Origin: Vulcanimicrobiota bacterium | Lineage (GTDB): Bacteria > Vulcanimicrobiota > Vulcanimicrobiia > Vulcanimicrobiales > Vulcanimicrobiaceae | Reading direction: 5' to 3' | DNA: 64,000 bases | Assembly: GCA_003168375.1 (NCBI GenBank) | Contig: PMSI01000001.1 | Location: forward strand, 1,736,001 to 1,800,000 | Shown: one piece after another, positions 2,753 through 19,497 of the stretch | Position numbering within the stretch: the stretch's first letter is position 1 | Layout: each line of letters starts with the position of its first letter | Notes under the pieces: generated by a model | Told to the model about the DNA's origin: nothing | Database searches by the model: none | Seen by the model: only the letters and a program-made list of their open reading frames with translations | Made by a program: the position numbers and the translations under genes

Positions 2753-3877
2753 ATGCCGCGCATTCTCACCTTCGTCATGGACTCCGCCGGCGTCGGTGCC
2801 CTCCCCGATGCAGTCGCTTACCACGACTCATCGAACGCGAACACGATCGGAAACGTCGCCGAGCGGTTGGGCGGGTTGGTGCTCCCCAACTTCGAGCGGC
2901 TCGGGCTCGGCCACATCACCCCCGTCCGCGGCCTCTCGGGCTCGGTCGAGCCCCTCGCAGCGGTCGGCCGCCTTAGAGAACGATCAAAGGGCAAGGACAC
3001 CATAACCGGTCACTGGGAGATGGCCGGGGTGATCACCGAGGTTCCGTTTCCGACCTATCCGGACGGTTTTCCGCCGGAGGTCGTCGAGCGTTTCACCGCC
3101 ATCTGTGGGAAAGCGCCGCTGGGCAACGTCGCGGCATCCGGGACGGAGATCATCGCAGAGCTGGGCGAGGAGCACCAGCGGACCGGCCGCCCGATCCTCT
3201 ATACCTCGGCCGACTCGGTCTTCCAGGTGGCGGCGCACGAGGAGACCGTCCCGCTGGCGACCCTCTACGATTGGTGCGAGCGGGCGCGAGCGATGCTGGT
3301 GCCCCCGCACGAGGTGAATCGGGTGATCGCCCGGCCGTTCGTCGGGACCCCCGGAAACTACGCGCGCACGCCGAACCGTCGTGATTACGCGATCCCGCCG
3401 CCGCCGACGGTGTTGGATCGGCTGGAGCAGGCGGGTGTACCCGTCCACGCAGTCGGGAAGATCTGTGACATCTACAGCGGTCACGGGATCGCGTCGTCCA
3501 TCCGCGTCGCCGATAACAGTGAAGCGGTGGATCGCGCGCTCGCCTTGGCAGACGCCACGGATCACGGTCTGGTGTTCGTCAACCTCAACGATTTCGACAC
3601 CAAGTTCGGGCATCGCAGAGATGTCCGGGGCTATGGTGATGCCCTGGCGCGGCTCGATGCCCGCATCCCGGAGCTGCTGGAGCGGATCCGGCCCGGCGAC
3701 GCCCTGATGTTCACCGCCGACCACGGCTGCGACCCGACCCAGCCCGGGACCGACCACACCCGCGAGTACGTGCCCTACATCGAGTACGGCCCGGTCCCGG
3801 GCGGCGAGCTCGGGGTGATCGAAGGGCTGGGCCACGTCGGCGAGCGGATCGAAGCGATCCTCGGAACCGGCCGATGA
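2753..3877 (+). CDS. deoB: Phosphopentomutase
   Basis: A 374-residue alkaline-phosphatase-superfamily enzyme that interconverts (deoxy)ribose 1- and 5-phosphates in nucleoside salvage. Hallmarks are the N-terminal metal/nucleophile region (VMDSAGVGALPDA), KDTITGHWEMAG with the phospho-accepting Thr, NLNDFDTKFGHRRDV, and the C-terminal metal site TADHGCDPTQPGTDHTREY. Length matches the family. It runs divergently from the LptD-like gene across 59 bp and overlaps the next gene by ATGA. Its presence at the head of a polysaccharide run is probably incidental, although ribose 1-phosphate supply is conceivable. Confidence 0.95.
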   Translation: MPRILTFVMDSAGVGALPDAVAYHDSSNANTIGNVAERLGGLVLPNFERLGLGHITPVRGLSGSVEPLAAVGRLRERSKGKDTITGHWEMAGVITEVPFPTYPDGFPPEVVERFTAICGKAPLGNVAASGTEIIAELGEEHQRTGRPILYTSADSVFQVAAHEETVPLATLYDWCERARAMLVPPHEVNRVIARPFVGTPGNYARTPNRRDYAIPPPPTVLDRLEQAGVPVHAVGKICDIYSGHGIASSIRVADNSEAVDRALALADATDHGLVFVNLNDFDTKFGHRRDVRGYGDALARLDARIPELLERIRPGDALMFTADHGCDPTQPGTDHTREYVPYIEYGPVPGGELGVIEGLGHVGERIEAILGTGR

Positions 3878-4566
3878 GCGTCGTCGAGGTGCGGTCGCCG
3901 GCGCCCGCCGACCTCTCCGACCTCCCGGTCGGGGTCCCGTTCCCCCGGGCGCCCGCGCGGCCGGGCTGGTTCGCTCCCGCGAAGCGGGGCCTCGACGTCG
4001 TGCTGGCGGTCGCGCTGCTGCTCGCGAGCTCGCCGGTGATCCTGGCCGCGGCGGTCGGGATCGTCGCGGTCAGCGGCGGCAGCCCGTTCTACCGGCAGGA
4101 CCGCGTCGGGCTCGGCGGACGCCGTTTCCGGATGTTCAAGCTGCGGACGATGGTGCGCGGCGCGCACGCGATGCTCCCCAAGCTGCGCCGGTTCAACGAG
4201 GCCGACGGGCCGGTCTTCAAAATGCGCGACGATCCCCGCCTCCACCGGCTGGGCGCGTTTCTGCGGCGCACGTCGATCGACGAGCTGCCGAACTTCTTCA
4301 ACGTGCTGCTCGGCGACATGGCGATCGTGGGACCGCGCCCGCCGCTCCCCGAGGAAGTGGCGCACTACGACGAATACGCATTGCGCCGGCTGGTCGTGAA
4401 GCCGGGCGTCACCTGTCTGTGGCAGATCTCGGGCCGCTCGCACCTCTCGTTCGAGGAGTGGATGGCGCTCGACAACGCTTACATCGATGCATGGTCGCCG
4501 TGGTACGACCTCGAGATCGTCGCGCGGACGATCCCGGCCGTGCTGCGAGGGGTCGGCGCGCATTAA
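3874..4566 (+). CDS. Undecaprenyl-phosphate sugar phosphotransferase (short WbaP/PglC type)
   Basis: A 230-residue bacterial sugar transferase that starts glycan assembly by moving a sugar 1-phosphate onto the polyprenyl phosphate carrier at the inner membrane. A single membrane re-entrant segment (about residues 38-62) is followed by the catalytic block: YRQDRVGLGGRRFRMFKLRTM, then SIDELPNFFNVLLGDMAIVG-type and PGVTCLWQISGRS-type motifs. The N-terminal four-TM and CoA-binding-like regions of full WbaP are missing, so it resembles the monotopic PglC core. Start ATG overlaps the deoB stop (ATGA). Confidence 0.92.
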   Translation: MSVVEVRSPAPADLSDLPVGVPFPRAPARPGWFAPAKRGLDVVLAVALLLASSPVILAAAVGIVAVSGGSPFYRQDRVGLGGRRFRMFKLRTMVRGAHAMLPKLRRFNEADGPVFKMRDDPRLHRLGAFLRRTSIDELPNFFNVLLGDMAIVGPRPPLPEEVAHYDEYALRRLVVKPGVTCLWQISGRSHLSFEEWMALDNAYIDAWSPWYDLEIVARTIPAVLRGVGAH

Positions 4567-6154
4567 CCGCCGCCTGACCGTCGTCGCGGAAGGCCGTACC
4601 CCGCGGCGGCTCGCGCTCTCGACGGTCGTCGTCATGGGCGCGACGCTGGCGTCCACCATCCTGGGATTCGTGCGCGAGGTCGTCTACGCGAAGTTCTACG
4701 GAACCTCGTGGGAGCTCGACGCGTTCCTGGTGGCCTCGGTCGTCCCGGTCATCCTGTTCGGCGTGTTCACCGGCGCGCTCGTCACGGCGCTGGTCCCGCT
4801 GTTCTCCGACTACATCAACACCGAGCGCGAGGACGAGGCGTGGAAGCTCGCTTCGACGACGATCGCCGTGCTGGTCGTCGTGCTGGGTGCCTCCGCGGCG
4901 ATCGGCGCGCTGCTCGCACCGTGGTACGTCCCGAAGATCGCGCGCCTCACGCCGGCGTTACACGCGCAAACCGCGGTCGAGATGACCCGCTGGCTCATGC
5001 CGACGATCGTCGCGACCAGCCTTGCCGGCGTCGTCGGCGCGCTGCTCAACGCGTACCACCGGTTCGGCGCCGCCGCGCTGCAGGGCGTGCTCGCCAACAT
5101 CTGCATCATCGCGTTCGTTTGGTTCGCGCAGCCGCACTACGGTGCGTACGCGCTCGTCTTCGGTGCCCTCGCAGGTGCCTTCGCCTCGCTGCTCGCCTTG
5201 CTGCCGACGTTCGTCGCGCTGCGGCGGTTTCGCTTCGCGATCGACCTGCACCATCCGGGCCTGATACGGCTCCTGCACGTCCTGGCGCCGATCGCGATCG
5301 GTTCCGCCGCCGGGCAGATCGCGATGTTCTTCGACCGCTACTTCGCGTCGCAGATGTCGGAAGGGACGATCGCGGGGATGAACTTCGCCGTCAAGATCGT
5401 CGGCTTTCCCCAACAGCTCTTCGTCACGGCGATTGCGACGGTGATCTTTCCGCTGTTCGCGAGCCAGTTCGCGAGCAAGAACCGCGCCGCGATGAAGCGG
5501 AGCGTCGGAACCGGTTTGCAGATGGTGATCTTTCTGACGCTCCCGTCCGCATTTGGGCTGTGCATGCTCGCCGGTCCGATCGTGCAGACGCTCTTCGAAC
5601 GCGGTGCCTTCACCCCCGAAGCGACGGTGCTCTGCGCGCAGCTGCTGCCGTTCGCGGCGGTCGGGCTGGTTGCGCTGGCCGCGAACGTCGTGCTGACGCG
5701 CTGCCTGTATGCCTGCGGCGAGGTGCGGATCGCGATCGTGATCTCGGTCGCGACGGTCGCGCTCAACGTGATCCTCTCGCTGGTGTGGAAGGGGCCGCTC
5801 GGAGCGCGCGGGCTGCTGCTCGCCAACGCCGTTTCGCAGACGCTGCAGACCGTCGCGTTCGTCGTGGTCGCCTGGCGCGCGCTGGGCGGCTTCCCGCTGC
5901 GCACGGTCTCCGTCTCGCTGCTGAAGGTCGGCGCCTGCTCGGCGGTGATGGGCTTCGCGCTCGCCGCCGTGCAGCTGACCCGGACGCCGCCCTCGCCGAC
6001 GGCGCTCGCGCGCATCACGAACTTGGGCGAGCACTTGCTGTTCGGAGCGTTCGTCTTCATCGCGCTCGCCCGGGTCGTCGACTCCGAAGAGCTCCACTTG
6101 GCGCTCGACGTGGTGCTCCGCCGCCGACCGCGCGATCTCGTCCCCCTGCCGTGA
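4562..6154 (+). CDS. MurJ/MviN-family lipid-linked flippase
   Basis: About 530 residues with the MviN signature FVREVVYAKFYG in the first loop and about 14 hydrophobic segments. Family role: flipping lipid II or other undecaprenyl-linked precursors to the periplasmic face. The start is unsettled. The frame is open from ATG 4487, but that overlaps the upstream gene by 80 bp. ATG 4634 falls inside the first membrane segment. No in-frame GTG or TTG lies between them. I use ATT 4562, which overlaps the upstream TAA (ATTAA) behind a GAGGGG run; CTG 4574 is another option. The locus suggests polysaccharide-repeat export as well as, or instead of, peptidoglycan work. Confidence 0.85.
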   Translation: MNRRLTVVAEGRTPRRLALSTVVVMGATLASTILGFVREVVYAKFYGTSWELDAFLVASVVPVILFGVFTGALVTALVPLFSDYINTEREDEAWKLASTTIAVLVVVLGASAAIGALLAPWYVPKIARLTPALHAQTAVEMTRWLMPTIVATSLAGVVGALLNAYHRFGAAALQGVLANICIIAFVWFAQPHYGAYALVFGALAGAFASLLALLPTFVALRRFRFAIDLHHPGLIRLLHVLAPIAIGSAAGQIAMFFDRYFASQMSEGTIAGMNFAVKIVGFPQQLFVTAIATVIFPLFASQFASKNRAAMKRSVGTGLQMVIFLTLPSAFGLCMLAGPIVQTLFERGAFTPEATVLCAQLLPFAAVGLVALAANVVLTRCLYACGEVRIAIVISVATVALNVILSLVWKGPLGARGLLLANAVSQTLQTVAFVVVAWRALGGFPLRTVSVSLLKVGACSAVMGFALAAVQLTRTPPSPTALARITNLGEHLLFGAFVFIALARVVDSEELHLALDVVLRRRPRDLVPLP

Positions 6155-6193
6155 CGAAGTCACGCCCGGCATGACGAAGTCACGCTTCGCGTG
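6150..6193. repeat. Three consecutive small hairpins, with a 20-bp direct repeat
   Basis: CGTGAC-GAA-GTCACG (6150-6164) is followed by a second copy TGAC-GAA-GTCA (6172-6182) twenty bases on, then CACGC-TTC-GCGTG (6181-6193). The element covers the flippase stop codon and the GTG start of the next gene. It could modulate 3' decay or translation of the downstream start. It looks like a miniature extragenic palindrome. Confidence 0.5.
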
Positions 6194-7528
6194 ATCCTTC
6201 ACCCCTGGACCGTCACGCTGCGCCAAGAGACGCACGTGCCGGTCGACGTGCTCAGCGCGCTCGTCTACCTGCTGTGCGCGATCGCGGTCGGCGCGCTGAC
6301 GCGCCGGCGTCCGGCGCTCGGCGTCGCCGCGCTGCTCGTCTTGGCGCCGTTCGACCTCGCGCGGTACGTCGGACCCACCACGATCACGACGCTCAAGGCC
6401 GGACTGGTCGGGATGCTCGTCGCGCTCGCGTTCTCGCGCCCCGATCTCGCCGCGTTCCGGACCCTGCCGGTCCGGGCGATGCTGACCGCCTTTGCGGCGA
6501 CGCTGGTCGCGATCGCGCTCTCCGCGACCCACGCGCAGCATCTCGGCGAGGTCGTGCGCGAGGCGTTCAAGGACGGCGAGTATCTGCTGCTGTTCCTCGG
6601 CGCGGTCGCCGCCTTCGCGACCGATCCCGACGACCGGCCGTTCTGGCGCACGCTGGAGTTCGCGGTCGTCCTCGTGTGCTGCTCGGCGCTCGCCGAGTAC
6701 GCGCTCGGCGCGCACAGCGGCCTGTTCGTGCGCGGAGAGTCGCTCCCGCGGATCGCGGGAGCGCTCGAGGGGCCGAACCAGCTCGCGGGGTACCTCGACG
6801 TCGCGCTGCCCGTGCTGGTCGCGCGCGCGCTGGTCCACCGTGACCGCGTGCTGGTCGGCGTGATCCTGCTGGCGACGATCACCGACGTGCTCACGATTTC
6901 GCGCTCGGGGATCGTCGGTGCGGCGATCGGCGTCATCGTCGTGCTGCTCGTTCTGCGGCCGTTCTCGAGCGCCGCGTGGCGCTTCGCCGGCGTCATGGTG
7001 CTGATCGCGGCGTTCGGCATCGTGCTCGCGCTTCGCACCGGCGTCCCGACCGGTTACTTCACCCTCGATCAGGCGACGCAGTCCGCCGACCATCTCGGCA
7101 ACCGCTCCCAGCTGTGGCGCGCCGCGATCACGCTGTGGCGCACCTCGCCGGTGGTCGGCGTCGGTGCCGGCAACTACGAGCTCGACCTCGACCAGGTCGG
7201 GCTCATCGGCGTGCGCACCCACGCCAACAGCATCTACCTGCAGAGCTTGGCGGAGACCGGAATCCTCGGCCTCCTCGCGACCGTCGCGCTGTTCGCGGTC
7301 ACGATCGTCACCCTGGCGCGGAGCCGCGTGCGCAGGCCGCTGGTGGTCGGCGCGCTCGGAGCCGCCGTCGCGCTGGCCTCGCATCAAGTGCTCGACGATC
7401 TGTTCTTCTTTCCGAAGGTCGCGTCGGCGTACTGGCTGGTCGTCGGCGTCGCGATCGCCGAGATCGCCGCGCGCCGGCTGTTCGAACGGCGCCGGGCGGC
7501 GTCGTACGTCTCCGGACCTTCTTCGTGA
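6191..7528 (+). CDS. O-antigen polymerase/ligase (Wzy_C family)
   Basis: A 445-residue polytopic protein with about 11-12 hydrophobic segments and the Wzy_C/WaaL features TISRSGIVGA, a large periplasmic loop with GNRSQLWRAAITLW, GVGAGNYEL and THANSIYLQSLAETGILGL. Family role: polymerising lipid-linked repeat units or ligating the polymer to a lipid acceptor. Which of the two cannot be told from sequence. The GTG start sits inside the hairpin element at 6181-6193. The stop overlaps the next start as GTGA. Confidence 0.88.
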   Translation: MILHPWTVTLRQETHVPVDVLSALVYLLCAIAVGALTRRRPALGVAALLVLAPFDLARYVGPTTITTLKAGLVGMLVALAFSRPDLAAFRTLPVRAMLTAFAATLVAIALSATHAQHLGEVVREAFKDGEYLLLFLGAVAAFATDPDDRPFWRTLEFAVVLVCCSALAEYALGAHSGLFVRGESLPRIAGALEGPNQLAGYLDVALPVLVARALVHRDRVLVGVILLATITDVLTISRSGIVGAAIGVIVVLLVLRPFSSAAWRFAGVMVLIAAFGIVLALRTGVPTGYFTLDQATQSADHLGNRSQLWRAAITLWRTSPVVGVGAGNYELDLDQVGLIGVRTHANSIYLQSLAETGILGLLATVALFAVTIVTLARSRVRRPLVVGALGAAVALASHQVLDDLFFFPKVASAYWLVVGVAIAEIAARRLFERRRAASYVSGPSS

Positions 7529-10461
7529 CCGGACGCGCGCGGCAAAGCGTCGCGCTGATCGCGCCGTTCTTCGGCCGCGACCTGCGCGGGCGCAAGGAAC
7601 GGTTCGCCTTCGCCTACGCGACGCATCTGGCGCTGGAAGGCGTGGCGATCGAAGTTCTCACCACGACCACGACCGCCGATGCGCCCGACGCGAACTTCTT
7701 TCACCCCGGGACCGATCACACCGAACCGTTCCTGGTGCACCGTTTTCGCGTCAACGCGCCGGACCGCGTCGCGTACGAAGAAGCGCTGCTCGCCGTGCGG
7801 CGCGGCGTACCCACCGCCCCCGAGCGCGCGCAGGCGCTGCTCGACGAACGGGTGCGCAGCCCCGATCTGCTCGCGCACGTCCGCGCCTCCGCCGATCGCT
7901 ACGATGCATTCCTGTTCCTGGACCTGACCGCGCCGACGACGGTGCATGCGATCGCCGACGTCGCCGAACGCAGCCTGCTGGTGCCGCTGCTCGACGACGA
8001 GCCGGCCGCGCGGCTCGCCGCCGTCGCCGCGGCCGTGTCGCGCGCGCGCCTGATCCTGTGTACGACCGAGGCCGAGGCGCTGCTGGTCGCCGAGCTGTTC
8101 GGGCCGGCACCGCGGGCGCGGACGCGCATCATCGGGCTCGGCGTCGACGTCGTCCCGCGCGGCAACCTGCACGACGATCGCGTCCGCCGGCTGACGCACG
8201 GGCATCCGTACGTGCTGGCGACGCGCGACGATCCGCTCGCGTTCGCACAGATGCGTGAGAGCGGCGCCCAGGTCGTCGCGGTCGACGAGATCGAGGAGCG
8301 CGATCGGGCCGCGTTCTTCGCGTTCGCGCGCGCGGTCGCGGTCGGCGGCGCCGGGCTCGGCTTCGTCCCCGAGGTCGTCGAAGCGTGGGCGTACGGGAAA
8401 CCGGTCCTGGCCGCCGCCGACGCCCCCGGTGCGGCCGCGCTCGTGCGCGAGACCGGCGGCGGGCTCGTCGTCCCGCGTGACGGCTGGGCGAAGGCGCTGC
8501 TCGCGCTGCCAAGCGACGACGCGCTCGGCGTGCTCGCGCGGGCGGGGACCGCTTATGTCGAGACGCGCGGCGGCTGGCGGCGCGTCGCCGCGCGAACCTC
8601 GGAGGCGATCGACGGGCTCGGCGCGCTCGAAGACGGCCGCTCGCGCGACGAGCTGCTCGCGCAGGTCGCTTACCTGTATCCGCTGGTGCAGCGGCAGCGG
8701 CGCACGATCGAGGCGATGCGCGTCAGCCGGTTCTGGCGGCTGCGCGACGTGTGGTTCGCAACGAAGCGGCGCTTCGGGATCGGCCCGGCCGCGGATCCGG
8801 TCCAGATCTCCGAGGGTGACGTGCGCGAGGTCGAGCTCGCCGCGCTCGGCGATCCGTACCAACTTTTCCGCGAACACCATCGGCTGCGCGGCGAGGACGT
8901 CGCGCGGATGCGCGCGATGACGCGCTTGCTGCCGAAGCCGATCGCGTTCCGCTTGGTGATCGACGCGCGCGGCCGCGGAACCGACGGACTGGCTTCGACG
9001 CTGCGCTCGCTGCGCGATCAGGTGTACGACCGCTGGACGGTGTCGGTGCTGCTGGATGCGCCCGACGGCGCCTCGGGTGCGGCCGAGCTGAGCGCGCTCG
9101 TGGGTGAAGAACCGCGGATCGCGGTCGTACCGCCCGGCGGCGACCGTTTCGGGCAGGCCGATGTGGTCGGCGCACTCGATCCGTACGACCGGCTCGACCC
9201 GCACGCGCTGTTCGAGCTCGCGCTCGCGCTCCAGGACGACGCCGACGTCGTCTACTCCGACGAGGACCGTATCGACGACCGCGGCGTCCCGAGCGACCCG
9301 TGGTTCAAGCCCGACTGGTCGCCGGAGACCTTGCTGACGCGTGACTACACCGGCCGCATCTGCGTGATCCGCCGCGAGCTGCTCGAACGCGCCGGCGGCG
9401 TTCGCGACGTCTTCGAAAGCGCGACGTGGTACGAGGCGCTGCTGCGCGTCAGCGAGCTGACCGATCGGGTCGTGCACGTCGCGCAGGTGCTCTGCCACCG
9501 CCACGTCGGCAACACCGTCCGCGAGACCGACCTCGCACTCGCGGTCGAGGTCACGCTGCGCCGGCGCGGCGAGGCCGCGAGCCTCAACGTCGTGGACGGC
9601 GGCGTCGACGTTCGCTTCGCCGTTCCGGGCGACGAGCGGGTGTGCGTGATCGTCCCGACGCGCGACCGCGCCGATCTGATCGGCCCGTGCATCGCATCGA
9701 TCTTCGAGCGCACCACCTACCGGGACTTCGAGGTGCTCGTCGTCGACAACGGCAGCCGCGAGGCGGCGACGCTGGGGCTGCTCGCCGAGTGGGAGCGCCG
9801 CGAGCCCGAGCGCTTCCGCGTCCTGCGCGACGCGACGCCGTTCAACTTCTCGCGGCTCAACAATGAGGCGGCCCGGACGACCGGCGCGCCGTACATCCTG
9901 CTGCTGAACAACGACACCGAAGTGATCGCGCCCGACTGGATGGAGACGATGCTGGGCCAGGCGCGCCGCCCTGCCGTCGGCGCCGTCGGTGCGCTCCTGC
10001 TCTATCCCGACGGCACGGTGCAGCACGGCGGGGTCGTGCTGGGGATCCTCGGCCTCGCCGGCCACGCGCACCGCTTCCTGCCCTCGAATACCGAAGGCTA
10101 TCACGGCGCGCTGCAGCTCGACACGAACTATCTGGCGGTGACCGGCGCGTGTCTGATGGTCGAGAAACGAAAATATTTCGAAGTGGGTGGGCTCGACGAG
10201 TCGCTCGCCGTCTCGTACAACGACGTCGACCTCTGCCTGAAGCTGCACCGCGCCGGGTACCGCAACGTCTTCGTCCCGCGCGCCCGGCTCTACCACTTCG
10301 AGTCGAAGAGCCGCGGCGGCGACGACACCCCGGCCAAGGTCGCGCGCGCGATGGAGGAAGTCGGGACGATCCGCAAGCGTTGGCCCGAATGGGCCGCGCG
10401 CGACCCCTACTACAACCCGAACCTCACGGTCGACGCCGAGGATTTCGGCCTGCGCCTGTGA
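7525..10461 (+). CDS. Multidomain glycosyltransferase (GT4-like plus two GT2 domains)
   Basis: 978 residues from a GTG that overlaps the upstream stop (GTGA). Residues about 1-375 look like a reduced GT-B (GT4-like) domain ending GFVPEVVEAWAYGKPVLAA. A hinge RFWRLRDVWFATKRRFG follows. Next is a first GT-A region (about 480-690, VVYSDEDRIDD and WFKPDWSPETL). Last is a complete GT2 domain (about 705-978, VIVPTRDRADLI, LLLNNDTEVI, AVTGACLMV, YNDVDLCLKL). Hinge and both GT-A regions match the protein at 38273-40414. A bifunctional or chain-extending enzyme of O-antigen/rhamnan type is likely; the donor is unknown. The GT4-like part lacks a clear E-x7-E motif and may be structural. Confidence 0.88.
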   Translation: MTGRARQSVALIAPFFGRDLRGRKERFAFAYATHLALEGVAIEVLTTTTTADAPDANFFHPGTDHTEPFLVHRFRVNAPDRVAYEEALLAVRRGVPTAPERAQALLDERVRSPDLLAHVRASADRYDAFLFLDLTAPTTVHAIADVAERSLLVPLLDDEPAARLAAVAAAVSRARLILCTTEAEALLVAELFGPAPRARTRIIGLGVDVVPRGNLHDDRVRRLTHGHPYVLATRDDPLAFAQMRESGAQVVAVDEIEERDRAAFFAFARAVAVGGAGLGFVPEVVEAWAYGKPVLAAADAPGAAALVRETGGGLVVPRDGWAKALLALPSDDALGVLARAGTAYVETRGGWRRVAARTSEAIDGLGALEDGRSRDELLAQVAYLYPLVQRQRRTIEAMRVSRFWRLRDVWFATKRRFGIGPAADPVQISEGDVREVELAALGDPYQLFREHHRLRGEDVARMRAMTRLLPKPIAFRLVIDARGRGTDGLASTLRSLRDQVYDRWTVSVLLDAPDGASGAAELSALVGEEPRIAVVPPGGDRFGQADVVGALDPYDRLDPHALFELALALQDDADVVYSDEDRIDDRGVPSDPWFKPDWSPETLLTRDYTGRICVIRRELLERAGGVRDVFESATWYEALLRVSELTDRVVHVAQVLCHRHVGNTVRETDLALAVEVTLRRRGEAASLNVVDGGVDVRFAVPGDERVCVIVPTRDRADLIGPCIASIFERTTYRDFEVLVVDNGSREAATLGLLAEWERREPERFRVLRDATPFNFSRLNNEAARTTGAPYILLLNNDTEVIAPDWMETMLGQARRPAVGAVGALLLYPDGTVQHGGVVLGILGLAGHAHRFLPSNTEGYHGALQLDTNYLAVTGACLMVEKRKYFEVGGLDESLAVSYNDVDLCLKLHRAGYRNVFVPRARLYHFESKSRGGDDTPAKVARAMEEVGTIRKRWPEWAARDPYYNPNLTVDAEDFGLRL

Positions 10462-11770: not shown

Positions 11771-13048
11771 CTAGAGCGTGTAGCCCGCGGCCGACGCGTC
11801 GCGGTGGAACATCTTCACCGTGTCGAGCGAGTACTCGTCGAGGTCCTTGCCGACCAGCTCGAGTTTGGCCAGGATGTCGTGCGTCGCGGTGATGATGTGG
11901 ACTCCTGCGGCATGCGCTTGAAACACGTTGAGCAATTCGCGCGGGCTCGCCCAGATGAGCTCGACGTTCGGGACCGCGGCGCACAGCGTCGCGTTTCGGC
12001 GCATCATCGGAACCGGATCGCGGCCCGTATCGGCGACGCGACCTGCGAAGACCGAGACGTATGCACCCGGCGTCCCGGTTAGCGCCGCCAGCACCGTGCC
12101 CACCTGGGCCTCCGTCATGAGTGCGGTGACGTTGAGCTTGACGCCGTCGGCGGTGAGCTCCCGCACGACGTCGCCGGTCGGCCGCGCGGTGGTGTCGGTC
12201 ACCGGGATCTTCACGTAGACGTTGTCGCCCCAGGAGGCGAGTTTGCGCGCCTGGCGCACCATCTCGCGCGCTTCGTCGGCGAACACTTCGAACGAGATCG
12301 GACGGTCGCCGACGATCTCGAGCGCCCGGCGAGCGAAGCTCTCGTAGTCGGAGATCCCGGCCTTGCGCATCAGCGTCGGATTCGTCGTGAAGCCTGCGAT
12401 ACGAGGATCGGCGGCCAGCTTCTCGATGCCGTCGAGGTCGGCGCCGTCGGCGAAGAGTTTGACCTTGAGACCATCGAGGGCGACCACGTCGGAGGCGGCG
12501 TCGAGTGCGTGCATGGTACTCCTGGAATGGGCGATGATCCACCCCGCGGCCTCTCCGATCGAGGCGACGCGGGCGGCGGGCGTGGAGGGAGCGCGCTCGG
12601 CGTAGCCGCGATCGATGAAGATCGTCGTGCAGCCGGCCGCTTTGCCTGCTTCGATGTCGCGCCAGCGATCTCCGACCAAGTAGCTGCGCGCCAGGTCGAT
12701 GCAGTGGAGGCGGGCACCCTGCTGCAGCAGCCCGGGCTTCGGTTTGCGGCACTCGCATCCGTCGGGGTCGTCGTGGGGGCAGACCAGAACGTCGTCGAGC
12801 GGCAGGGCGCCGCGCAGCCGAGCGTTGATCGCCTGGACGCGCCCAAGCGTCGTCGTTCCGCGCGCGACGTCCGGCTGGTTGGTGACGACGATCAACGCGA
12901 AGCCATGCTCACGCAGTAACCGCAACGCGTCGGGAGCGCCCGCGTACACGACGAGATCGCCGGCGGTGCCGGGCGGGTGCGGCCGGCCGTCCCGGACGAC
13001 CGGTTCGTTGAGAACCCCGTCGCGGTCGAGAAAGACCGCCCGCCGCAC
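11771..13048 (-). CDS. GmhB-type heptose bisphosphate phosphatase fused to transaldolase
   Basis: A 425-residue fusion. Residues 1-177 are a HAD phosphatase of the GmhB/HisB-N group: nucleophile FLDRDGVLNEP, VVTNQPDVARG, zinc ligands C90, H92, C98, C100 and RKPKPG. It should remove the 7-phosphate from heptose 1,7-bisphosphate. Residues about 195-425 are a short (TalC/FSA-size) transaldolase: TTNPTLMRKAG, Schiff-base Lys280 in NVYVKIPVT, ASPRELLNVF. Transaldolase makes sedoheptulose 7-phosphate, the substrate of the GmhA encoded just upstream. GTG start abuts the upstream TGA. An in-frame ATG at 12514 with a strong AGGAGT site could also give free transaldolase. Confidence 0.9.
   Translation of the reverse strand: MRRAVFLDRDGVLNEPVVRDGRPHPPGTAGDLVVYAGAPDALRLLREHGFALIVVTNQPDVARGTTTLGRVQAINARLRGALPLDDVLVCPHDDPDGCECRKPKPGLLQQGARLHCIDLARSYLVGDRWRDIEAGKAAGCTTIFIDRGYAERAPSTPAARVASIGEAAGWIIAHSRSTMHALDAASDVVALDGLKVKLFADGADLDGIEKLAADPRIAGFTTNPTLMRKAGISDYESFARRALEIVGDRPISFEVFADEAREMVRQARKLASWGDNVYVKIPVTDTTARPTGDVVRELTADGVKLNVTALMTEAQVGTVLAALTGTPGAYVSVFAGRVADTGRDPVPMMRRNATLCAAVPNVELIWASPRELLNVFQAHAAGVHIITATHDILAKLELVGKDLDEYSLDTVKMFHRDASAAGYTL
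12518..12523 (-). promoter_or_regulatory. Internal Shine-Dalgarno for free transaldolase
   Basis: On the minus strand AGGAGT lies four bases before an in-frame ATG (12514-12512) exactly at the HAD/transaldolase junction (residue 179). It is among the best ribosome sites in the window and sits where a separate transaldolase gene would begin. Two products, fusion and stand-alone transaldolase, are therefore possible. Confidence 0.5.
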
Positions 13049-13660
13049 TCAGACCGCCGTCGGCGCGACGACGCTTTCCCACTTCGTCGCGTTGGCCTTG
13101 AGCGACGGATGGGAGACGATGCAGTGCCACACGACGCCCTGGAACGCTTCGGAATGCGGCGTGATGTGCGCGTCGTTCACCGTCGGGATGATGACCGTCG
13201 CGTCGGCCACCGTCGCGGTGAACCCCCCGTCGCGTCCGACGATCCCGAGCACGACCGCACCGACTTCCTTGGCGTGCTGCACGGCGCGCACCAGGTTCGG
13301 TGAGACGTTGCGCTCGAGGCTGCCGCCGCCGACCGAGAACACCAGAACGGCGTCGGTCGAACGCAGCTTGCTCACTTTGAGCCAGGCCGAGAACGTCGTC
13401 TCCCAACCCTCGTCGTTGGTCCGCGCGGTGAGTTCCGAAACGTTGTCGGTCGGCGCGTAGGCTTCGATTCCGACCAGCTTGCGGAAATCGTTCACCGCGT
13501 GCGAGGCGTTGCCGGCGCTGCCGCCGACCCCCAAGATGAACAGCCGGCCCGCGCGCGCGCGCAGCGCGGCCAAATGTTCGACGACGCGTTCGATCGCGCC
13601 GGTATCGAGGCGCTCGATCACGGCTTTCGCTTCGGCGAGGAACTCCTGCGCGAACGTCAT
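13049..13660 (-). CDS. gmhA: Sedoheptulose 7-phosphate isomerase (GmhA-like, SIS domain)
   Basis: A 203-residue SIS-domain protein: helix-rich start, then LFILGVGGSAGNASHAVNDF (phosphosugar loop), TDAVLVFSVGGGS, and the C-terminal HSEAFQGVVWHCI with histidines suited to metal binding. Family role: converting sedoheptulose 7-phosphate to D-glycero-D-manno-heptose 7-phosphate. It overlaps the guanylyltransferase stop (ATGA at 13660) and abuts the phosphatase-transaldolase start. The sequence is divergent from E. coli GmhA and closer to isomerases in GDP-heptose clusters. Context strongly supports the name. Confidence 0.88.
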   Translation of the reverse strand: MTFAQEFLAEAKAVIERLDTGAIERVVEHLAALRARAGRLFILGVGGSAGNASHAVNDFRKLVGIEAYAPTDNVSELTARTNDEGWETTFSAWLKVSKLRSTDAVLVFSVGGGSLERNVSPNLVRAVQHAKEVGAVVLGIVGRDGGFTATVADATVIIPTVNDAHITPHSEAFQGVVWHCIVSHPSLKANATKWESVVAPTAV

Positions 13661-14373
13661 GGTACGGATTTCTCCCCTGCCGAGCGGGCCATGATGAACC
13701 GCTCCGTCTCCGCGAACCCTTCCGGCGAGCCGATCTCGTGCCAGCGCTCGAGGACCGGGAAGGCGCGCAGCGTGCCTCGCGCGATCATCGCGCGGTGGAC
13801 CTCCGACAGGTCGACGGGCCGATCGTCGGAGACGGTGGCGAACGCGTCGGCGCGAAACGCATTGATACCGTAGTCGATATGCGTCATCGTCCCAGGAGCC
13901 GCCTCCTTGTCGTACGCGCGGACCCGTTCGCCGTCGACGGCGACATTGCTCGGCAGGCCGCGATCGTCGTTGCGATAGAGCGTCATCACGCCTGCGTACG
14001 GCGCGGTCAGCGCGCCTGCGACGGCGGCGAGATCGGTGGTCGGCAACGAGTCGCCGTACACGGTGAGGAAGGCTGCGCCAAGCAGCGGCAGCGCTCGCTG
14101 CACGGCACCGGCCGTTCCCCGCGTCGCGTCCCCGTCTTCACTGTATCGGACGTCCAGACCGAACGAGCGGCCGTCGCCGGCAAAACCGCGGAGCAACTCG
14201 CCGCCGAACCCGGTCAGGAGAACGACGTCGGTCGCGCCCTCGCTGCGGAGCCAGCGGAGCTGATGCGCGAGAAACGGCTCGCCCGCGACGGGGACCATCG
14301 TCTTGGGAAGACCCCCGGCGATCGCCGAGATTCGTGTTCCTTGCCCGCCGCAGAGGATCGCAACCGGTAGCAC
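13657..14373 (-). CDS. hddC: Heptose 1-phosphate guanylyltransferase (HddC-like nucleotidyltransferase)
   Basis: 238 residues from GTG 14373, chosen because the family begins at the nucleotide loop VLPVAILCGGQGTRI; the frame stays open further upstream without resemblance. GGLPKTMVPVAGEPFLAHQL, FLTVYGDSLPTTDL and ERWHEIGSPEGF are standard for sugar 1-phosphate nucleotidyltransferases. In the heptose pathway it would make GDP-D-glycero-alpha-D-manno-heptose from the 1-phosphate. GTP over other NTPs is inferred from neighbours GmhA, HddA and GmhB. It heads the three-gene minus operon and is divergent from the epimerase at 14468. Confidence 0.87.
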   Translation of the reverse strand: MLPVAILCGGQGTRISAIAGGLPKTMVPVAGEPFLAHQLRWLRSEGATDVVLLTGFGGELLRGFAGDGRSFGLDVRYSEDGDATRGTAGAVQRALPLLGAAFLTVYGDSLPTTDLAAVAGALTAPYAGVMTLYRNDDRGLPSNVAVDGERVRAYDKEAAPGTMTHIDYGINAFRADAFATVSDDRPVDLSEVHRAMIARGTLRAFPVLERWHEIGSPEGFAETERFIMARSAGEKSVP

Positions 14374-14467
14374 CCCGTTCTGTTTCCCGTGTGCGAGCCC
14401 GTTCCTCGCGCGGCGCGCCCGACAAGGAGTTCCGTGCACGCGTGGTGACAGTTTCGGTCCGACACGC

Positions 14468-15406
14468 ATGAAATACGTCGTTACCGGCTGTGCCGGATTC
14501 GTGGGCAGCACGCTGGTGGACCGGCTCGTGGCGGACGGTCATCACGTGGTGGGGCTCGACGACTTCTCCACCGGGCGAGAGGCGTTCGTACGGCAGGCGT
14601 GCGAGGCGCCGGGTTTCGAGCTCGTCCGCGGCGATCTGCGGGATCCTGGGCTCGCGCTGGACGCAGCCCTCGGTGCGGACGCGATCTTCCACCTGGCGGC
14701 GAACGCCGACGTGCGGCACGGCACGGAACATCCGACGCGCGACCTCGAGCAGAACACCATCGTGACGGTGAACGTCCTCGAAGCCGCGCGGCGCAACGGC
14801 GTGCGCGACTTCCTGTTCTCGTCGACCGGTTCGGTCTACGGCGAGGCTCCGGTCGTTCCGACGCCCGAGGATGCGCCGATGCCGGTGCAGACCTCGCTCT
14901 ACGGTGCGTCGAAGGTCGCCGCGGAGGGCTTCATTCAGGCGTACGCGGAGGGTTTCGGGATCCGTGCGCTCATCTTCCGCTTCGTCTCGCTGTTGGGCGA
15001 GCGTTATACGCACGGCCACGTCATTGATTTCGTCCGACAGCTCAGGGAGCACCCGGACCGCTTGCACGTTCTCGGGAACGGGCGCCAGCGCAAGTCGTAC
15101 CTTTATGTCGGCGACTGCATCGAAGCGATGCTGACCGCGCTGCGCGCGGCCCCGGGAAAGGTGGGCGTCTACAATCTCGGGGCCGGCGAGTACTGCCAGG
15201 TGATCGACTCGGTCGGCTGGATCTGCGAGACGCTGCGCGTTACTCCGACGCTCACGTTCTCGGGCGGCGATCGCGGCTGGATCGGCGACAACCCGTTCAT
15301 CTTTCTCGATTGCGCGCGGATGCGCGGGCTGGGCTGGGAACCCACCATGACGATCCGCGAGGCGGTCGTGCGCACCGTTGGCTGGCTGCAGGAGCACGAC
15401 GCGTGA
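14468..15406 (+). CDS. NAD-dependent sugar epimerase/dehydratase (GalE-like SDR)
   Basis: A 312-residue extended SDR. Nucleotide-binding GCAGFVGSTL (residues 7-16), DDFSTGREAF, the AANADV strand, and catalytic YGASK within TSLYGASKVAAEGF. Length fits UDP-glucose 4-epimerase-like enzymes. The exact substrate is not readable; it may act on GDP-heptose or UDP-hexose. Start ATG 14468 is the first codon of the Rossmann strand (MKYVVTG). It begins a five-gene plus-strand operon in which each start overlaps or is nested in the preceding gene (GTGA/ATGA). Confidence 0.9.
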   Translation: MKYVVTGCAGFVGSTLVDRLVADGHHVVGLDDFSTGREAFVRQACEAPGFELVRGDLRDPGLALDAALGADAIFHLAANADVRHGTEHPTRDLEQNTIVTVNVLEAARRNGVRDFLFSSTGSVYGEAPVVPTPEDAPMPVQTSLYGASKVAAEGFIQAYAEGFGIRALIFRFVSLLGERYTHGHVIDFVRQLREHPDRLHVLGNGRQRKSYLYVGDCIEAMLTALRAAPGKVGVYNLGAGEYCQVIDSVGWICETLRVTPTLTFSGGDRGWIGDNPFIFLDCARMRGLGWEPTMTIREAVVRTVGWLQEHDA

Positions 15407-16692
15407 AGATCGCCGTCGTAGGGCTGTGGCACCTGGGCACCGTGACGGCCGCCGGACTGGCGGCCGCCGGGCATGACGTCGTCGCGATCGACGACGCCGC
15501 GATCGTCGAGGAGATCGCGCACCTGCGCCTCCCCGTCGACGAACCGGGGCTCGCCGAGCTGATCGCGGCCGAGCGCGCCGCCGGGCGCCTGACCTTCGCG
15601 GCGCACCCGTCGGCCGCGTCCGGCGCCGAACTGGTGTGGATCTGCTACGACACGCCGGTCGACGACGACGACCGCCCCGACGTGGCGTCGGTCATCGAGC
15701 GTGCGTCGGCGTTTCTCGCTGCGTTCGACGGCGCTGCGGTCGTCGCGGTCTCTTCGCAGCTCCCCGTCGGCAGCATCGCGGAACTCGAACGCCGCGCGGG
15801 GAGCGCCCGCTTTTGCTTCGCGTCGATCCCCGAGAATCTGCGGCTGGGTTCCGCGATCGCGTACTTTCGCGCACCGGACCGCTTCGTGGTCGGCGTGCGC
15901 GATGCGCGTGCGCGCGCAACGATCGAGCGCGCGATCGGGTCGTTCGCGCCGTCGATCGTGTGGGTGAGCGTAGAATCGGCCGAGGTCACCAAACACGCGA
16001 TCAACGCCTTCCTCGCCACATCGGTCGCGTTCGCCAACGAGCTGGCGTCGGTGTGCGAGCGCGTCGGGGCCGATGCGCGTGAGGTCGAGCGCGGTCTCAA
16101 GAGCGACGTGCGGATCGGACCGAAAGCCTACCTGCGGGCGGGCGAAGCGTTCGCCGGCGGGACCCTCGCGCGCGATCTGTCGTTCTTGGCGACGCTGGGA
16201 GATCGCGAGCAGCTTGCGCTCGAGCAGATTCGCGCGACGGCGGCGAGCAACGAGCGTCATCGACGCTGGACCGCCGAGCGCGTGGCCGAGGCGACGCGCG
16301 GCATCGCCGCACCGCGCGCGGCGATTCTCGGCCTCGTGTACAAGCCGGGAACCAATACGCTGCGCGCTTCGACCGCGGTCGCGCTCGCGCGAGCGCTGCG
16401 CGACGGGGGCGCGGCGGTGAGCGCGTACGACCCGGCGATCGCCGCCGGCGACGCGCGGCTCGGCTCGATCGCGACGGTCGTCGCATCGGCGGCGGAGGCG
16501 CTCGACGGCGCCGACGTCGCGGTGATCGCGACGGCATGGCCGGCGTTCCGGGAGATCGACGTCGCGCTCTTCGAACGGATGCGGCACCCGGTGGTCGTCG
16601 ATCCTGCGCGCTTCTTGGAAGACCGGTTGGCGGACGCGCATGCAGTACGGTACGTCGGCTTCGGCCGCTCCCCGCACGCGGTGACGCGATGA
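15403..16692 (+). CDS. UDP-glucose/GDP-mannose 6-dehydrogenase family protein lacking the catalytic Cys
   Basis: 429 residues, GTG start overlapping the epimerase stop. The family fold is clear: Rossmann strand IAVVGLWHLG, YDTPVD, ENLRLGSAIAYF (about 144-155), SAEVTKHAINAFLATSVAFANE (about 192-213), and a C-terminal UDP-binding half (LGLVYKPGTNTLRASTA). The loop that normally reads GGSCFPKD with the nucleophilic Cys is GGTLARD here (about residues 252-258), so no Cys is available for two-step oxidation to the acid. It may be a one-step dehydrogenase, a reductase or a ligand-binding relative. Confidence 0.85.
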   Translation: MKIAVVGLWHLGTVTAAGLAAAGHDVVAIDDAAIVEEIAHLRLPVDEPGLAELIAAERAAGRLTFAAHPSAASGAELVWICYDTPVDDDDRPDVASVIERASAFLAAFDGAAVVAVSSQLPVGSIAELERRAGSARFCFASIPENLRLGSAIAYFRAPDRFVVGVRDARARATIERAIGSFAPSIVWVSVESAEVTKHAINAFLATSVAFANELASVCERVGADAREVERGLKSDVRIGPKAYLRAGEAFAGGTLARDLSFLATLGDREQLALEQIRATAASNERHRRWTAERVAEATRGIAAPRAAILGLVYKPGTNTLRASTAVALARALRDGGAAVSAYDPAIAAGDARLGSIATVVASAAEALDGADVAVIATAWPAFREIDVALFERMRHPVVVDPARFLEDRLADAHAVRYVGFGRSPHAVTR

Positions 16693-17537
16693 GCGCGCGG
16701 CGGGTTCTCATCACCGGCGCCTCGCAAGGGATCGGTCTCGCGATCGCGCGTGCATTCGCGGCCGCCGGCGACGACGTCGCGATCTGCGCGCGCTCGGAGC
16801 CGGCGCTCGCCGCCGCCGCGGCCGAACTCCGCGAGTGCCATCCGGGCGCGCGCGTCCATGCGCGTGTCGCCGACGTGGGGTCCGAAGGCAGCGTCGAGGC
16901 GTTGGTCGACGACGTCGTCGCGGCGTTCGGCGGGCTCGACGTGCTGATCGCGAACGCCGGGGTCTATGGACCGAAGGGGGCGATCGAGGACGTCGACTGG
17001 GAGGCGTGGGTCGACGCGATTCGGATCAACCTGCTCGGCGTCGTCTATTGCGCGCGCCGCGCGCTGCCGGCGCTCCGCCGCAGCGAGCGCGGAAAGATCG
17101 TGATCCTGTCCGGGGGCGGTGCGACGAAGCCGCTGCCGTTCCTCAGCGCGTACGCGGCCTCGAAGGCCGGCGTCGTGCGCTTCGGCGAAACGCTTGCCGA
17201 AGAGCTGCGCGACGCCCGAATCGAGGTCAACATGGTCGCGCCCGGCGCGCTCAACACGCGGCTGCTCGACGAAGTGCTCGACGCCGGGCCCGACGTCGTC
17301 GGGGCGGCGTTTCACGCTGCGTCGATGAAGCAGCGGGAGGCCGGCGGCACGCCGCTCGAGATCGGCGCGGCGCTGTGCGTCTTTCTCGCGTCGCGCGCCG
17401 CCGACGGGATCACCGGGAAACTGATCTCGGCGCCGTGGGATCCGTGGAATCGTTTCGCGGCCGAGAAGGAGCGCCTCGACGGGGACGTCTACACGCTGCG
17501 GCGCATCGGCCCCGAGGAACGAGGATGGTCGTGGTGA
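16689..17537 (+). CDS. SDR-family oxidoreductase
   Basis: A 282-residue classical short-chain dehydrogenase: cofactor loop TGASQGIGLAIA (about residues 9-20), NAGVYGP, active site with SGGGATKPLPFLSAYAASKAG (Tyr-x3-Lys) and PGALNTRLLDE. The usual catalytic Ser position is within LSGGG, giving Ser then three Gly. The tail PWDPWNRFAAEKERLDGD is unusual for FabG and similar to SDRs in polysaccharide loci that act on nucleotide-sugar or polyol substrates. ATG overlaps the dehydrogenase stop (ATGA). Substrate unknown. Confidence 0.88.
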   Translation: MSARRVLITGASQGIGLAIARAFAAAGDDVAICARSEPALAAAAAELRECHPGARVHARVADVGSEGSVEALVDDVVAAFGGLDVLIANAGVYGPKGAIEDVDWEAWVDAIRINLLGVVYCARRALPALRRSERGKIVILSGGGATKPLPFLSAYAASKAGVVRFGETLAEELRDARIEVNMVAPGALNTRLLDEVLDAGPDVVGAAFHAASMKQREAGGTPLEIGAALCVFLASRAADGITGKLISAPWDPWNRFAAEKERLDGDVYTLRRIGPEERGWSW

Positions 17538-18517
17538 TCCCGCGCGTCGCGATCGTCGGGTGCGGTCTGATCGGGCACAAGCGCGCAAAGGTGCTCGCCG
17601 CCGGGTCCTTGCGGTTCGCGTGCGACGCCGACGAGAAGCGAGCGCGCGCGCTGGCCGCCGCATTCGGTGCCGAGCCCTCGACCGATTGGCGCACCGTCGT
17701 GGCGCACCCCGACGTCGACGTCGTGATCGTCGCGACCTCGCACGACGCGCTCGCCGAGATCACCGCCGCGGCGGCGGAGCACGGCAAGAGCGTGCTGGTC
17801 GAAAAGCCCGCCGCGCGCCGCGCCGCCGAGCTGGACGCGGTCGCTGCAGCGGTGGCGCGCACCGGCGCGAAGGTTCGCGTCGGGTTCAATCACCGGTATC
17901 ATCGCGCGTTTCGGCAAGCGCGAGCGATCGTCGATGGCGGAGTGCTCGGCCCGCTGACACACGTGCGCGCGCGCTACGGTCATGGCGGACGGTTGGGGTA
18001 CGAGAAGGAGTGGCGCTTCGTCCCCGAGATCTCGGGCGGCGGCGAGGGGATCGATCAAGGGATGCATCTGGTCGACCTCGCGCGTTGGTTCCTCGGCGAT
18101 TTCGACGTCGTCGCCGGCGCGATGCCGACCTACTTCTGGGATGCACCGGTCGAAGACAACGCCTTTTTCCTGCTCCGGACGGCGCGCGGTCAAGTCGCCT
18201 CGCTCCACGCCTCGTGGACCGAGTGGAAGAATCTCTTCTCGTTCGAGATCTTCGGCCGCACCGGAAAGCTGGAGATCGGCGGTCTCGGCGGCAGCTACGG
18301 CCTCGAGCGGCTCGCGCAGTACGCGATGACGCCGGAGCTGGGCCCGCCGCCGACGACGATCTGGGAATACCCGATGGGCGACGACTCTTGGGAGGCCGAG
18401 TGGGCAGCGTTCCTCGATGACATCGCGCTCGATCGCGTACCGGAGCCGAGTGTCGCGGACGCGGCAGCGGCGCTCGCGATCGTCGAGCACATTTACGCCA
18501 CGGAGAAACGCTCGTGA
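17525..18517 (+). CDS. Gfo/Idh/MocA-family oxidoreductase
   Basis: 330 residues. An N-terminal Rossmann domain (VAIVGCGLIGHKRAKVLA) with the EKPAARR active-site motif is followed by a C-terminal alpha/beta domain (GEGIDQGMHLVDLARWFLGDF). Such enzymes oxidise or reduce sugars or nucleotide-sugars using NAD(P). ATG 17525 has GAGGA six bases upstream and lies 13 bp inside the SDR gene. GTG 17534 (GTGA with the SDR stop) is the alternative. Flanked by SDR and heptose kinase, it probably tailors a sugar of the same glycan. Confidence 0.9.
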   Translation: MVVVIPRVAIVGCGLIGHKRAKVLAAGSLRFACDADEKRARALAAAFGAEPSTDWRTVVAHPDVDVVIVATSHDALAEITAAAAEHGKSVLVEKPAARRAAELDAVAAAVARTGAKVRVGFNHRYHRAFRQARAIVDGGVLGPLTHVRARYGHGGRLGYEKEWRFVPEISGGGEGIDQGMHLVDLARWFLGDFDVVAGAMPTYFWDAPVEDNAFFLLRTARGQVASLHASWTEWKNLFSFEIFGRTGKLEIGGLGGSYGLERLAQYAMTPELGPPPTTIWEYPMGDDSWEAEWAAFLDDIALDRVPEPSVADAAAALAIVEHIYATEKRS

Positions 18518-19497
18518 TCATTACGCGCTCGCCGCTGCGCATCTCGCTGGGCGGCGGCGGCACCGATCTCCCTTCGTACTACCGCGAGCACGGCGGTTTC
18601 GTCGTCGCGGCGGCGATCGATCGCTACGTCTACGTCACGCTGCACCGGACGTTCGTCGAAGAGTGCATCATCAAGTACGCGCAGATGGAACGCGTCCACG
18701 CGATCGACGAGATCGCGCACCCGATCATCCGCGAGGCGCTGCGGCTCACCGGGACCGCGTGCACGTCGCTCGAGATCGCCGTCATGTCGGATATCCCGGC
18801 CGGCACCGGCCTCGGCTCCTCGGGCAGCTTCGCGACCGCGCTGCTCGGTGCGCTGCACGCGCTCAACCATGAGATCGTCACCAAGGCGCGCCTCGCCGAG
18901 GAGGCCTGCCATCTCGAGATCGAGGTTCTCGGCGAGCCCGTCGGCAAGCAGGACCAGTTCATCGCCGCCTATGGCGGCATCACGGTGTTGACGTTCAACC
19001 AGGATGGAACCGTCGACGTGACGCCCGCGCGGCTGGACGCCGAGACACGTGCGAACCTGCAGGACAACACGATGATGTTCTTCACCGGCTACACGCGCTC
19101 GGCGTCGGCGATCCTCAAGGACCAGGACGACCGGACGAAGAGCAGCGAGCGCGGCATGATCGAGGAACTGCACCGCATCAAGGAGCTCGGCAAGGACAGC
19201 CTGGCCGCGCTCGAGAGCGGCGACCTGCGGCGGTTCGCCGAGATCATGCACGAGCACTGGGAGCGGAAACGGCGGCGTTCGACCGGTATGACGAACGAGC
19301 GCATCGACCGCTGGTACGAAACGGCGCGCGCGAACGGCGCGCTCGGCGGCAAGCTGATCGGCGCCGGCGGCGGCGGGTTCTTGCTGTTCTACACCGAGGA
19401 CAAGACGCGGCTACGCCACGCCATGCGCGAGAGCGGCCTGCCCGAAGTCCGCGTCGATTTCGACTCCCAAGGCACGACCGTCGTCTCGATGAGCTGA
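18514..19497 (+). CDS. hddA: D-glycero-alpha-D-manno-heptose 7-phosphate kinase (GHMP family)
   Basis: A 327-residue GHMP kinase. The N-terminus ITRSPLRISLGGGGTDLPSYY and the ATP loop PAGTGLGSSGSFATALLG are diagnostic of HddA-type heptose kinases; KLIGAGGGGFLLFY is the C-terminal motif 3. It would phosphorylate heptose 7-phosphate at C1, between GmhA and the GmhB domain at 11771-13048. GTG start overlaps the upstream stop (GTGA). It closes the plus-strand operon; the remaining heptose genes are on the other strand about 4 kb upstream. Confidence 0.93.
   Translation: MIITRSPLRISLGGGGTDLPSYYREHGGFVVAAAIDRYVYVTLHRTFVEECIIKYAQMERVHAIDEIAHPIIREALRLTGTACTSLEIAVMSDIPAGTGLGSSGSFATALLGALHALNHEIVTKARLAEEACHLEIEVLGEPVGKQDQFIAAYGGITVLTFNQDGTVDVTPARLDAETRANLQDNTMMFFTGYTRSASAILKDQDDRTKSSERGMIEELHRIKELGKDSLAALESGDLRRFAEIMHEHWERKRRRSTGMTNERIDRWYETARANGALGGKLIGAGGGGFLLFYTEDKTRLRHAMRESGLPEVRVDFDSQGTTVVSMS

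Follow-up and report, generated by a model that had tools for sequence, protein, structure and literature searches.

A HAD phosphatase-transaldolase fusion in a bacterial polysaccharide locus with a putative octose-activating gene set

The sugar of lincomycin is an octose, and to our knowledge the activation of an octose by the route considered here is established only for the lincosamide antibiotics. The transaldolase LmbR, as described in part of PMC5854111, yields an octulose phosphate by transfer to ribose 5-phosphate, the acceptor, with either fructose 6-phosphate or sedoheptulose 7-phosphate serving as the donor. Parts of two further papers assign the isomerase LmbN, the phosphatase LmbK, the guanylyltransferase LmbO and the kinase LmbP, together with the further sugar enzymes LmbM, LmbL and LmbZ, and have GDP-octose converted to GDP-lincosamide by LmbM, LmbL, CcbZ and CcbS (PMC12945683, PMC4351081). 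LmbN of the lincomycin pathway is a fusion of a carrier protein to the isomerase, for which an internal translation start has been shown, according to part of the second of these papers (PMC4351081).

The window, by which we mean the whole stretch of 64,000 nucleotides that was analyzed, comes from a soil-type bacterium and contains a gene in which a phosphatase and a transaldolase are joined (Table 1). The gene is a single open frame with a GTG start and encodes 425 amino acids, with the phosphatase at the amino terminus and the transaldolase, of the small TalC-like type, at the carboxy terminus. The HAD domain scores 117 bits against TIGR01656 (cut-off 84), and the transaldolase domain matches TIGR02134 (317.8 bits, cut-off 281.95) and Pfam TAL_FSA (139.5 bits, cut-off 27). 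AlphaFold2, run on 14 fused sequences, gave two confident domains (mean pLDDT 88) with a disordered linker at residues 178-188, and the top Foldseek matches of the fusion model are transaldolases. The window protein retains every catalytic position that was compared: in the HAD, the E. coli GmhB residues D11, D13, N54 and K111 and the four zinc ligands, and in the transaldolase the lysine, the E, the F, the S and both R. A supposedly altered phosphate site in the transaldolase was ruled out as a misalignment.

The genes for a SIS protein and a nucleotidyltransferase lie upstream of the fusion on the same strand, and those for an epimerase, a Ugd-like protein, a short-chain dehydrogenase (SDR), a Gfo/Idh-type oxidoreductase and a GHMP kinase are divergent. 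To the left of these are genes for a sugar transferase, a flippase of the MurJ type, a Wzy_C protein and a large glycosyltransferase; the whole is a polysaccharide locus of the Wzx/Wzy type that includes sugar-nucleotide genes of its own. The set is found again, with its order nearly unchanged, in Acidobacteria, Verrucomicrobia, Proteobacteria and others, and the cultured Polynucleobacter sp. es-MAR-4 (L047) is among the carriers of the cassette. The minus strand also encodes, at 19737-20474 and 20575-23151, two neighboring proteins with related amino-terminal parts, each with a Tectonin domain; the longer one (20575-23151) has a zinc-protease-like HEMQH motif, recognized by eye.

Table 1. Features of the window and of related loci (window positions unless a genome or locus handle is given)
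Feature	Coordinates	Strand	Remarks
HAD phosphatase-transaldolase fusion gene	11774..13048, stop codon 11771-11773	-	One frame also in L034, L035, L037
HAD-IIIA phosphatase domain, residues 1-176	12521..13048	-	LmbK-type: NQPD, DRDG-NQ spacing 49 residues
Internal ATG 12514-12512, preceded by AGGAGT 12523-12518	12512..12523	-	Possible separate start for a free transaldolase; inferred
Flexible linker, residues 178-188	12485..12517	-	pLDDT <50
Transaldolase domain, residues 193-424	11777..12472	-	TIGR02134 type; E, F at TalB E96, F178 positions
SIS isomerase, LmbN-type, predicted octulose 8-phosphate isomerase	13052..13660	-	D, E at E. coli GmhA 65, 172; six-residue insertion
Sugar-1-phosphate nucleotidyltransferase, LmbO-like	13660..14511	-	Start uncertain, domain begins near 14367
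NAD-dependent epimerase/dehydratase, LmbM-like	14468..15403	+	
UDP-glucose/GDP-mannose dehydrogenase family protein, LmbL-like (Ugd-like)	15400..16689	+	
Short-chain dehydrogenase (SDR)	16686..17534	+	Counterpart not found in five Streptomyces clusters
Gfo/Idh-type oxidoreductase, LmbZ-like	17525..18511	+	
GHMP kinase, LmbP/HddA-like, predicted anomeric sugar kinase	18514..19497	+	
Bacterial sugar transferase, undecaprenyl-phosphate glycosyltransferase type, start of polysaccharide locus	3874..4566	+	Pfam Bac_transf 202 bits
MurJ/Wzx-type flippase	4526..6154	+	Pfam MurJ 251 bits
Wzy_C polymerase/ligase	6191..7528	+	Pfam Wzy_C 69.6 bits
Large glycosyltransferase (Glycos_transf_2)	7552..10461	+	
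Canonical ADP-heptose locus	G000:C4:1011551 to about 1014100 (L155 8400-11070); GT9 at 13920-15095		
HldE-like protein beside the SIS-HAD-transaldolase core, replacing the GHMP kinase	L044 11143-12864; L059 9307-10890; similar loci		

The fusion is not private to the source organism. A search for the two-domain architecture across genomes, suggested in a preliminary description of this DNA and made in a collection of named genomes, returned 417 relatives, and among the best 80 of these, which come from many phyla, the two domains form one frame in 14; this number includes a locus (L076) that was also kept in the start-site test below and was left out of alignment A1, being without its amino terminus. 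Both genes are adjacent on one strand and in the same order in 58 loci (gap -7 to 156 bases) and apart in two, and six loci are without the HAD. These 80 loci were retrieved with the whole fusion as query, so that the presence of both domains was selected for. The fused relatives span seven phyla, judged by record titles. A tree of 73 HAD and transaldolase pairs requires 11 changes of the fused state, and well-supported branches force at least six of them: adjacent genes have merged many times or have been split again. One genome of the same family apparently has the gene pair twice, once fused and once as separate genes (G059:C160 and G059:C36; L007, L080).

That transaldolase and phosphatase are fused in one frame, as first described, is confirmed by the uninterrupted frame and by the matches to both domain models. 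A sequencing error masking a stop near position 12514 had been raised as a possible objection; this position is the ATG of codon 179, and two congeneric genomes have the same open junction with no stop (L034, 81% identity; L035, 79%). The frame is also uninterrupted in L037, one genus further off within the family (58% identity), and a fused single frame is present in four of 149 genomes of the phylum, including a fourth genome of this family, G059. The closer congeneric pair differs over the 56 codons of the junction at 8 first, 9 second and 17 third positions (17 of 34 differences at third positions), and its indels are of whole codons. An artifact of assembly or sequencing, with the genes truly separate, might be suspected from the many relatives with two separate adjacent genes (the 58 above) and from the start codon and Shine-Dalgarno-like sequence at the junction. 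We nevertheless consider it highly improbable, given an open junction common to the window, L034 and L035 with codon-like substitution and found in a second genus as well; the uninterrupted frames in these genomes rule out a sequencing error as the explanation.

Codon 179 is ATG in the window, L034 and L035; it follows AGGAGT in the window and a GAGG-type sequence or GGGAGC in the other two. In the 15 fused genes, a Shine-Dalgarno-like match (at least 4 of 6, a threshold picked after the window sequence had been seen) precedes 8 of 14 linker ATGs versus 22 of 122 other in-frame ATGs (p 0.003), and a linker ATG or GTG with such a match is present in nine of the 15. Because these matches are enriched at linker ATGs, a free transaldolase may still be produced from the junction start.

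The cluster had initially been read as a route to GDP-heptose, with gmhA and hddC in the same operon as the fusion and hddA nearby. The positions and strands of these genes hold, but their identity as heptose enzymes does not, since all of them score below the equivalog cut-offs: the SIS protein reaches 50 bits against GmhA (cut-off 209), the GHMP kinase 155.5 against HddA (cut-off 600) and the nucleotidyltransferase 59.4 against HddC (cut-off 300). Nor is the fused phosphatase of the GmhB type, as had been thought, since it has NQPD instead of NQSG and the fused protein misses the cut-offs of three GmhB models (about 57 to 109 bits, cut-offs 150 to 250; for NF050049, 56.5 against 250). These scores, the Lmb-like residues of the SIS and HAD proteins described below and a separate ADP-heptose locus speak against GDP-heptose as the product, and on the model scores and the diagnostic residues we reject a heptose pathway taken from gene names.

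The canonical ADP-heptose locus lies 0.74 Mb away in the same genome and encodes GmhA (191.9 bits), GmhB, a PfkB kinase, a small nucleotidyltransferase and a GT9 heptosyltransferase; no transaldolase was found at this locus. The score of this GmhA is under the strict cut-off of 209, yet far above that of the window SIS, and in the phylum the cut-off is reached in 3 of 147 genomes, with matches to the GmhA model in 142 and most GmhA proteins below it. At the 30 best-scoring GmhA loci among the matches in the phylum, the own genome's included, no transaldolase lies within 1.5 kb. Close relatives of the window SIS occur at 21 loci in 20 of the 147 genomes, with a transaldolase at most 1.5 kb away at every one, and the comparison of 21 of 21 with 0 of 30 argues that the transaldolase goes with the cassette SIS and not with heptose synthesis. 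Besides the fusion, the same genome has two further transaldolase-family genes, so that, with a full ADP-heptose locus also present, neither sedoheptulose 7-phosphate nor heptose is lacking. A transaldolase at G000:C6:91637-92671 (L001) lies within an open frame of 1263 codons and is perhaps fused to another enzyme.

Sequences of the Lmb type were obtained by searching with the window SIS against 392 genomes, presumed to be Streptomyces and a sample of the larger genus. Thirteen of the 392 matched, and five of the six examined have a complete K, L, M, N, Z, P, O and R set. One of these clusters, G847, has further genes for an aminotransferase, a glycosyltransferase, a mycothiol-isomerase-like protein, an rRNA adenine dimethylase, a luciferase-like reductase, an ABC-F-like protein, a TldD/PmbA protein and an adenylation enzyme, and its SIS protein has an amino-terminal carrier domain. 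Because of these other genes and the carrier domain on its LmbN, we take it to be a lincosamide cluster of the lincomycin type. The clusters of G319, G623 and G653 (L122-L123, L137-L140) have the octose set with a divergent LmbK, leave hardly any space between LmbO and LmbR for an aminotransferase, and are perhaps for a different octose product.

The SIS proteins of the cassettes (the window plus 72 of the best 80 loci) agree with LmbN at positions that distinguish them from GmhA. At position 65 of E. coli GmhA, D is found in all 73 cassette proteins and all five LmbN, and E in all 31 GmhA; at position 172, E is found in 72 of the 73 and in the five LmbN, and Q in all 31 GmhA. Nine other Streptomyces SIS proteins are mixed (D in five and E in four at position 65; E in five and Q in four at position 172). 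An insertion of six residues, or nine in one LmbN, is present in 73/73 cassette proteins and 5/5 LmbN, and in 0/31 GmhA and 0/9 other Streptomyces proteins. Loss of the catalytic histidine from the SIS protein was ruled out in the full alignment, where the histidine at E. coli position 180 is present in all 73. On a tree the cassette SIS proteins and LmbN stand apart from GmhA with support 91, below the mark of 95, and on long branches.

The HAD proteins follow the same pattern. NQPD or NQKD is found in all 72 cassette HADs and five of five LmbK, versus NQSG in 14 of 15 GmhB, and the spacing from DRDG to NQ is 49 in 63 of 67 measurable cassette HADs and in all five LmbK, versus 43 in 14 of 14 measurable GmhB. 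The window HAD scores 176 bits against the LmbK of G847 and 82 against the GmhB of its own genome, and identity to LmbK reaches 56%. In the HAD tree, the LmbK of G847 and G666 are nested inside the cassette clade, away from GmhB (support 84-92), and the divergent LmbK of G319, G623 and G653 are placed elsewhere with poor support. Both trees were built from every second cassette (36 of 72 loci for the SIS, 36 of 71 for the HAD) plus the window.

Pairwise scores place the HAD, SIS and Gfo/Idh proteins clearly nearer to Lmb proteins than to any solved structure; for the Gfo/Idh protein, LmbZ-type sequences are clearly closest (198 bits versus 97 for the best solved structure). The nucleotidyltransferase (95 bits to LmbO-type versus 89 to the best solved relative), the GHMP kinase (179 bits to LmbP-type versus 161 to solved heptose kinases) and the transaldolase are slightly nearer to Lmb proteins. 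The epimerase and the Ugd-like protein are less near, solved enzymes of other function scoring above LmbM and LmbL. The transaldolase, kinase, epimerase and Ugd-like protein do not discriminate between a C7 and a C8 sugar.

The Schiff-base lysine, K at FSA position 85, is present in 81 of 81 sequences of this transaldolase, as are E and F at TalB positions 96 and 178, the residues of a transaldolase rather than an aldolase. LmbR has Q and L at the latter two positions in five of five sequences, and the LmbR of G847 scores 133 bits against TIGR00875 versus 88 against TIGR02134. Assignment of the cassette transaldolase to an LmbR-type subfamily failed on its TIGR02134 membership and on E/F instead of Q/L, and because of this membership and the two active-site differences it is not LmbR by descent. 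Elsewhere TIGR02134 carries the annotation of an ordinary transaldolase, and the sequence does not tell whether the acceptor is C4 or C5. The same type of transaldolase also occurs where HAD and SIS genes are not nearby (L083, L088, L093, L104, L106, L110).

The cassette exists in two versions. SIS, HAD and transaldolase occur together at 72 loci. The GHMP kinase accompanies them at 37 of these and an HldE-like protein at 14, never both; the remaining 21 have neither, many being on short contigs. The HldE-like protein has its nucleotidyltransferase before its kinase and scores 153 bits against an HldE cut-off of 521. The isomerase, phosphatase and transaldolase are the constant core and the activation step is exchangeable, which is consistent with a transaldolase that acts before activation.

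From the gene content, the fusion, the residues and the kinship to Lmb proteins, all observed here, we propose with a probability of about 0.6 that the product of the cluster is an octose activated with a nucleotide, most likely as its GDP derivative, and destined for a surface polysaccharide. The transaldolase domain would take dihydroxyacetone from fructose 6-phosphate (or from sedoheptulose 7-phosphate) and add it to a pentose phosphate, for example ribose 5-phosphate, to form octulose 8-phosphate; this domain most likely supplies the first ketose phosphate of the pathway, as the preliminary description held, although not on a route to GDP-heptose. The SIS enzyme would convert the octulose 8-phosphate to octose 8-phosphate, the GHMP kinase would phosphorylate C1, the HAD domain of the fused protein would cleave off the C8 phosphate and the nucleotidyltransferase would form GDP-octose, which the epimerase, Ugd-like, SDR and Gfo/Idh enzymes may alter before its transfer to the polymer. 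The fused protein would thus carry out steps one and four. It arises by merger of two adjacent genes, and the start at the junction may also give free transaldolase. The substrates throughout, the nucleotide, the step order and the internal start are predictions from sequence. The weakest point of the proposal is the transaldolase, with its subfamily other than that of LmbR; also against it are a kinase about as close to solved heptose kinases as to LmbP, the closeness of the epimerase and Ugd-like protein to other solved enzymes, the support of 91 for the SIS split and the lack of LmbS among the cluster genes scanned. Nor is kinship to the Lmb enzymes proof of equal carbon number.

An octose pathway is more likely than a heptose pathway, in which the transaldolase would provide sedoheptulose 7-phosphate and the cluster would make GDP-D-glycero-D-manno-heptose, or a modified form of it, as a second dedicated pathway beside that for ADP-heptose. 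All five proteins do belong to the superfamilies of GmhA, HddA, GmhB, HddC and transaldolase, the kinase scores 161 bits against a solved heptose kinase, and the E and F in the active site of the transaldolase are the ordinary ones. However, the heptose equivalog models are all missed widely, the diagnostic residues of the SIS and HAD proteins group with LmbN and LmbK, and the canonical GmhA loci (0 of 30) have no transaldolase nearby. A dedicated transaldolase for a common metabolite would also go unexplained in a genome with two other transaldolase-family genes, and we regard GDP-heptose as an unlikely product. Somewhat less likely still is another unusual sugar, either a differently configured heptose or, with a hexose phosphate as acceptor, a C9 sugar. 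The acceptor length of the transaldolase is not legible in its sequence, and the acceptor may differ, since the residues at the E96 and F178 positions are not the same in the cassette transaldolase as in LmbR; the version with the HldE-like protein in place of the GHMP kinase, far from the HldE cut-off as it is, would fit such a sugar too. Against this, the SIS and HAD proteins, which both handle the intermediate, have specific changes in common with enzymes of C8 sugars, and these changes favor the octose.

A broader proposal, to which we give even odds, is that the transaldolase-isomerase-phosphatase core, often adjacent and repeatedly fused, makes activated C8 sugars for surface polysaccharides across many phyla, with either a GHMP kinase and nucleotidyltransferase or the HldE-like version, and that such cassettes were the source of at least the phosphatase of the lincomycin pathway. 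Searches of the open literature found neither the fusion nor an octose pathway for surface polysaccharides described. If the octose reading holds, eight-carbon sugars would have been overlooked as a building block of bacterial surface glycans in many phyla, automatic annotation would currently be mislabeling such clusters as heptose clusters, and it would become possible to test where part of the lincomycin pathway came from. The fused enzyme with its apparently kept internal start would offer a natural series in the merging of neighboring pathway genes.

Compared with known systems, the cluster resembles the GDP-D-glycero-D-manno-heptose pathway (GmhA, HddA, GmhB, HddC) in its predicted order of isomerase, anomeric kinase, phosphatase and nucleotidyltransferase, but is far under the equivalog cut-offs, is without the GmhA and GmhB residues and has an extra transaldolase. 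Its transaldolase passes the family cut-off of TIGR02134 ('transald_staph') and has the fold and catalytic residues of the TalC-type transaldolases of solved structure (1vpx, 3s0c, 3r8r); it differs from these in its place within a conserved cassette of sugar-nucleotide genes and in its occasional fusion to a phosphatase. Like LmbN, as described in part of PMC4351081, the fusion lies within the same kind of pathway and would retain an internal start, although other domains are joined and its start is a predicted one. From the lincosamide octose pathway of Streptomyces the cluster differs in having an SDR, in having its HAD fused to the transaldolase and in belonging to a Wzx/Wzy polysaccharide locus rather than an antibiotic cluster; an aminotransferase (LmbS) was not found among the cluster genes scanned, with the rest of the window scanned in part. 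We do not call it a full member of that pathway, because its transaldolase is not LmbR by descent and the acceptor is not evident from sequence. The two nevertheless have the same eight enzyme classes (LmbR, N, P, K, O, M, L and Z), with diagnostic residues and insertions common to their SIS and HAD proteins, and the cluster probably works like the lincosamide octose pathway.
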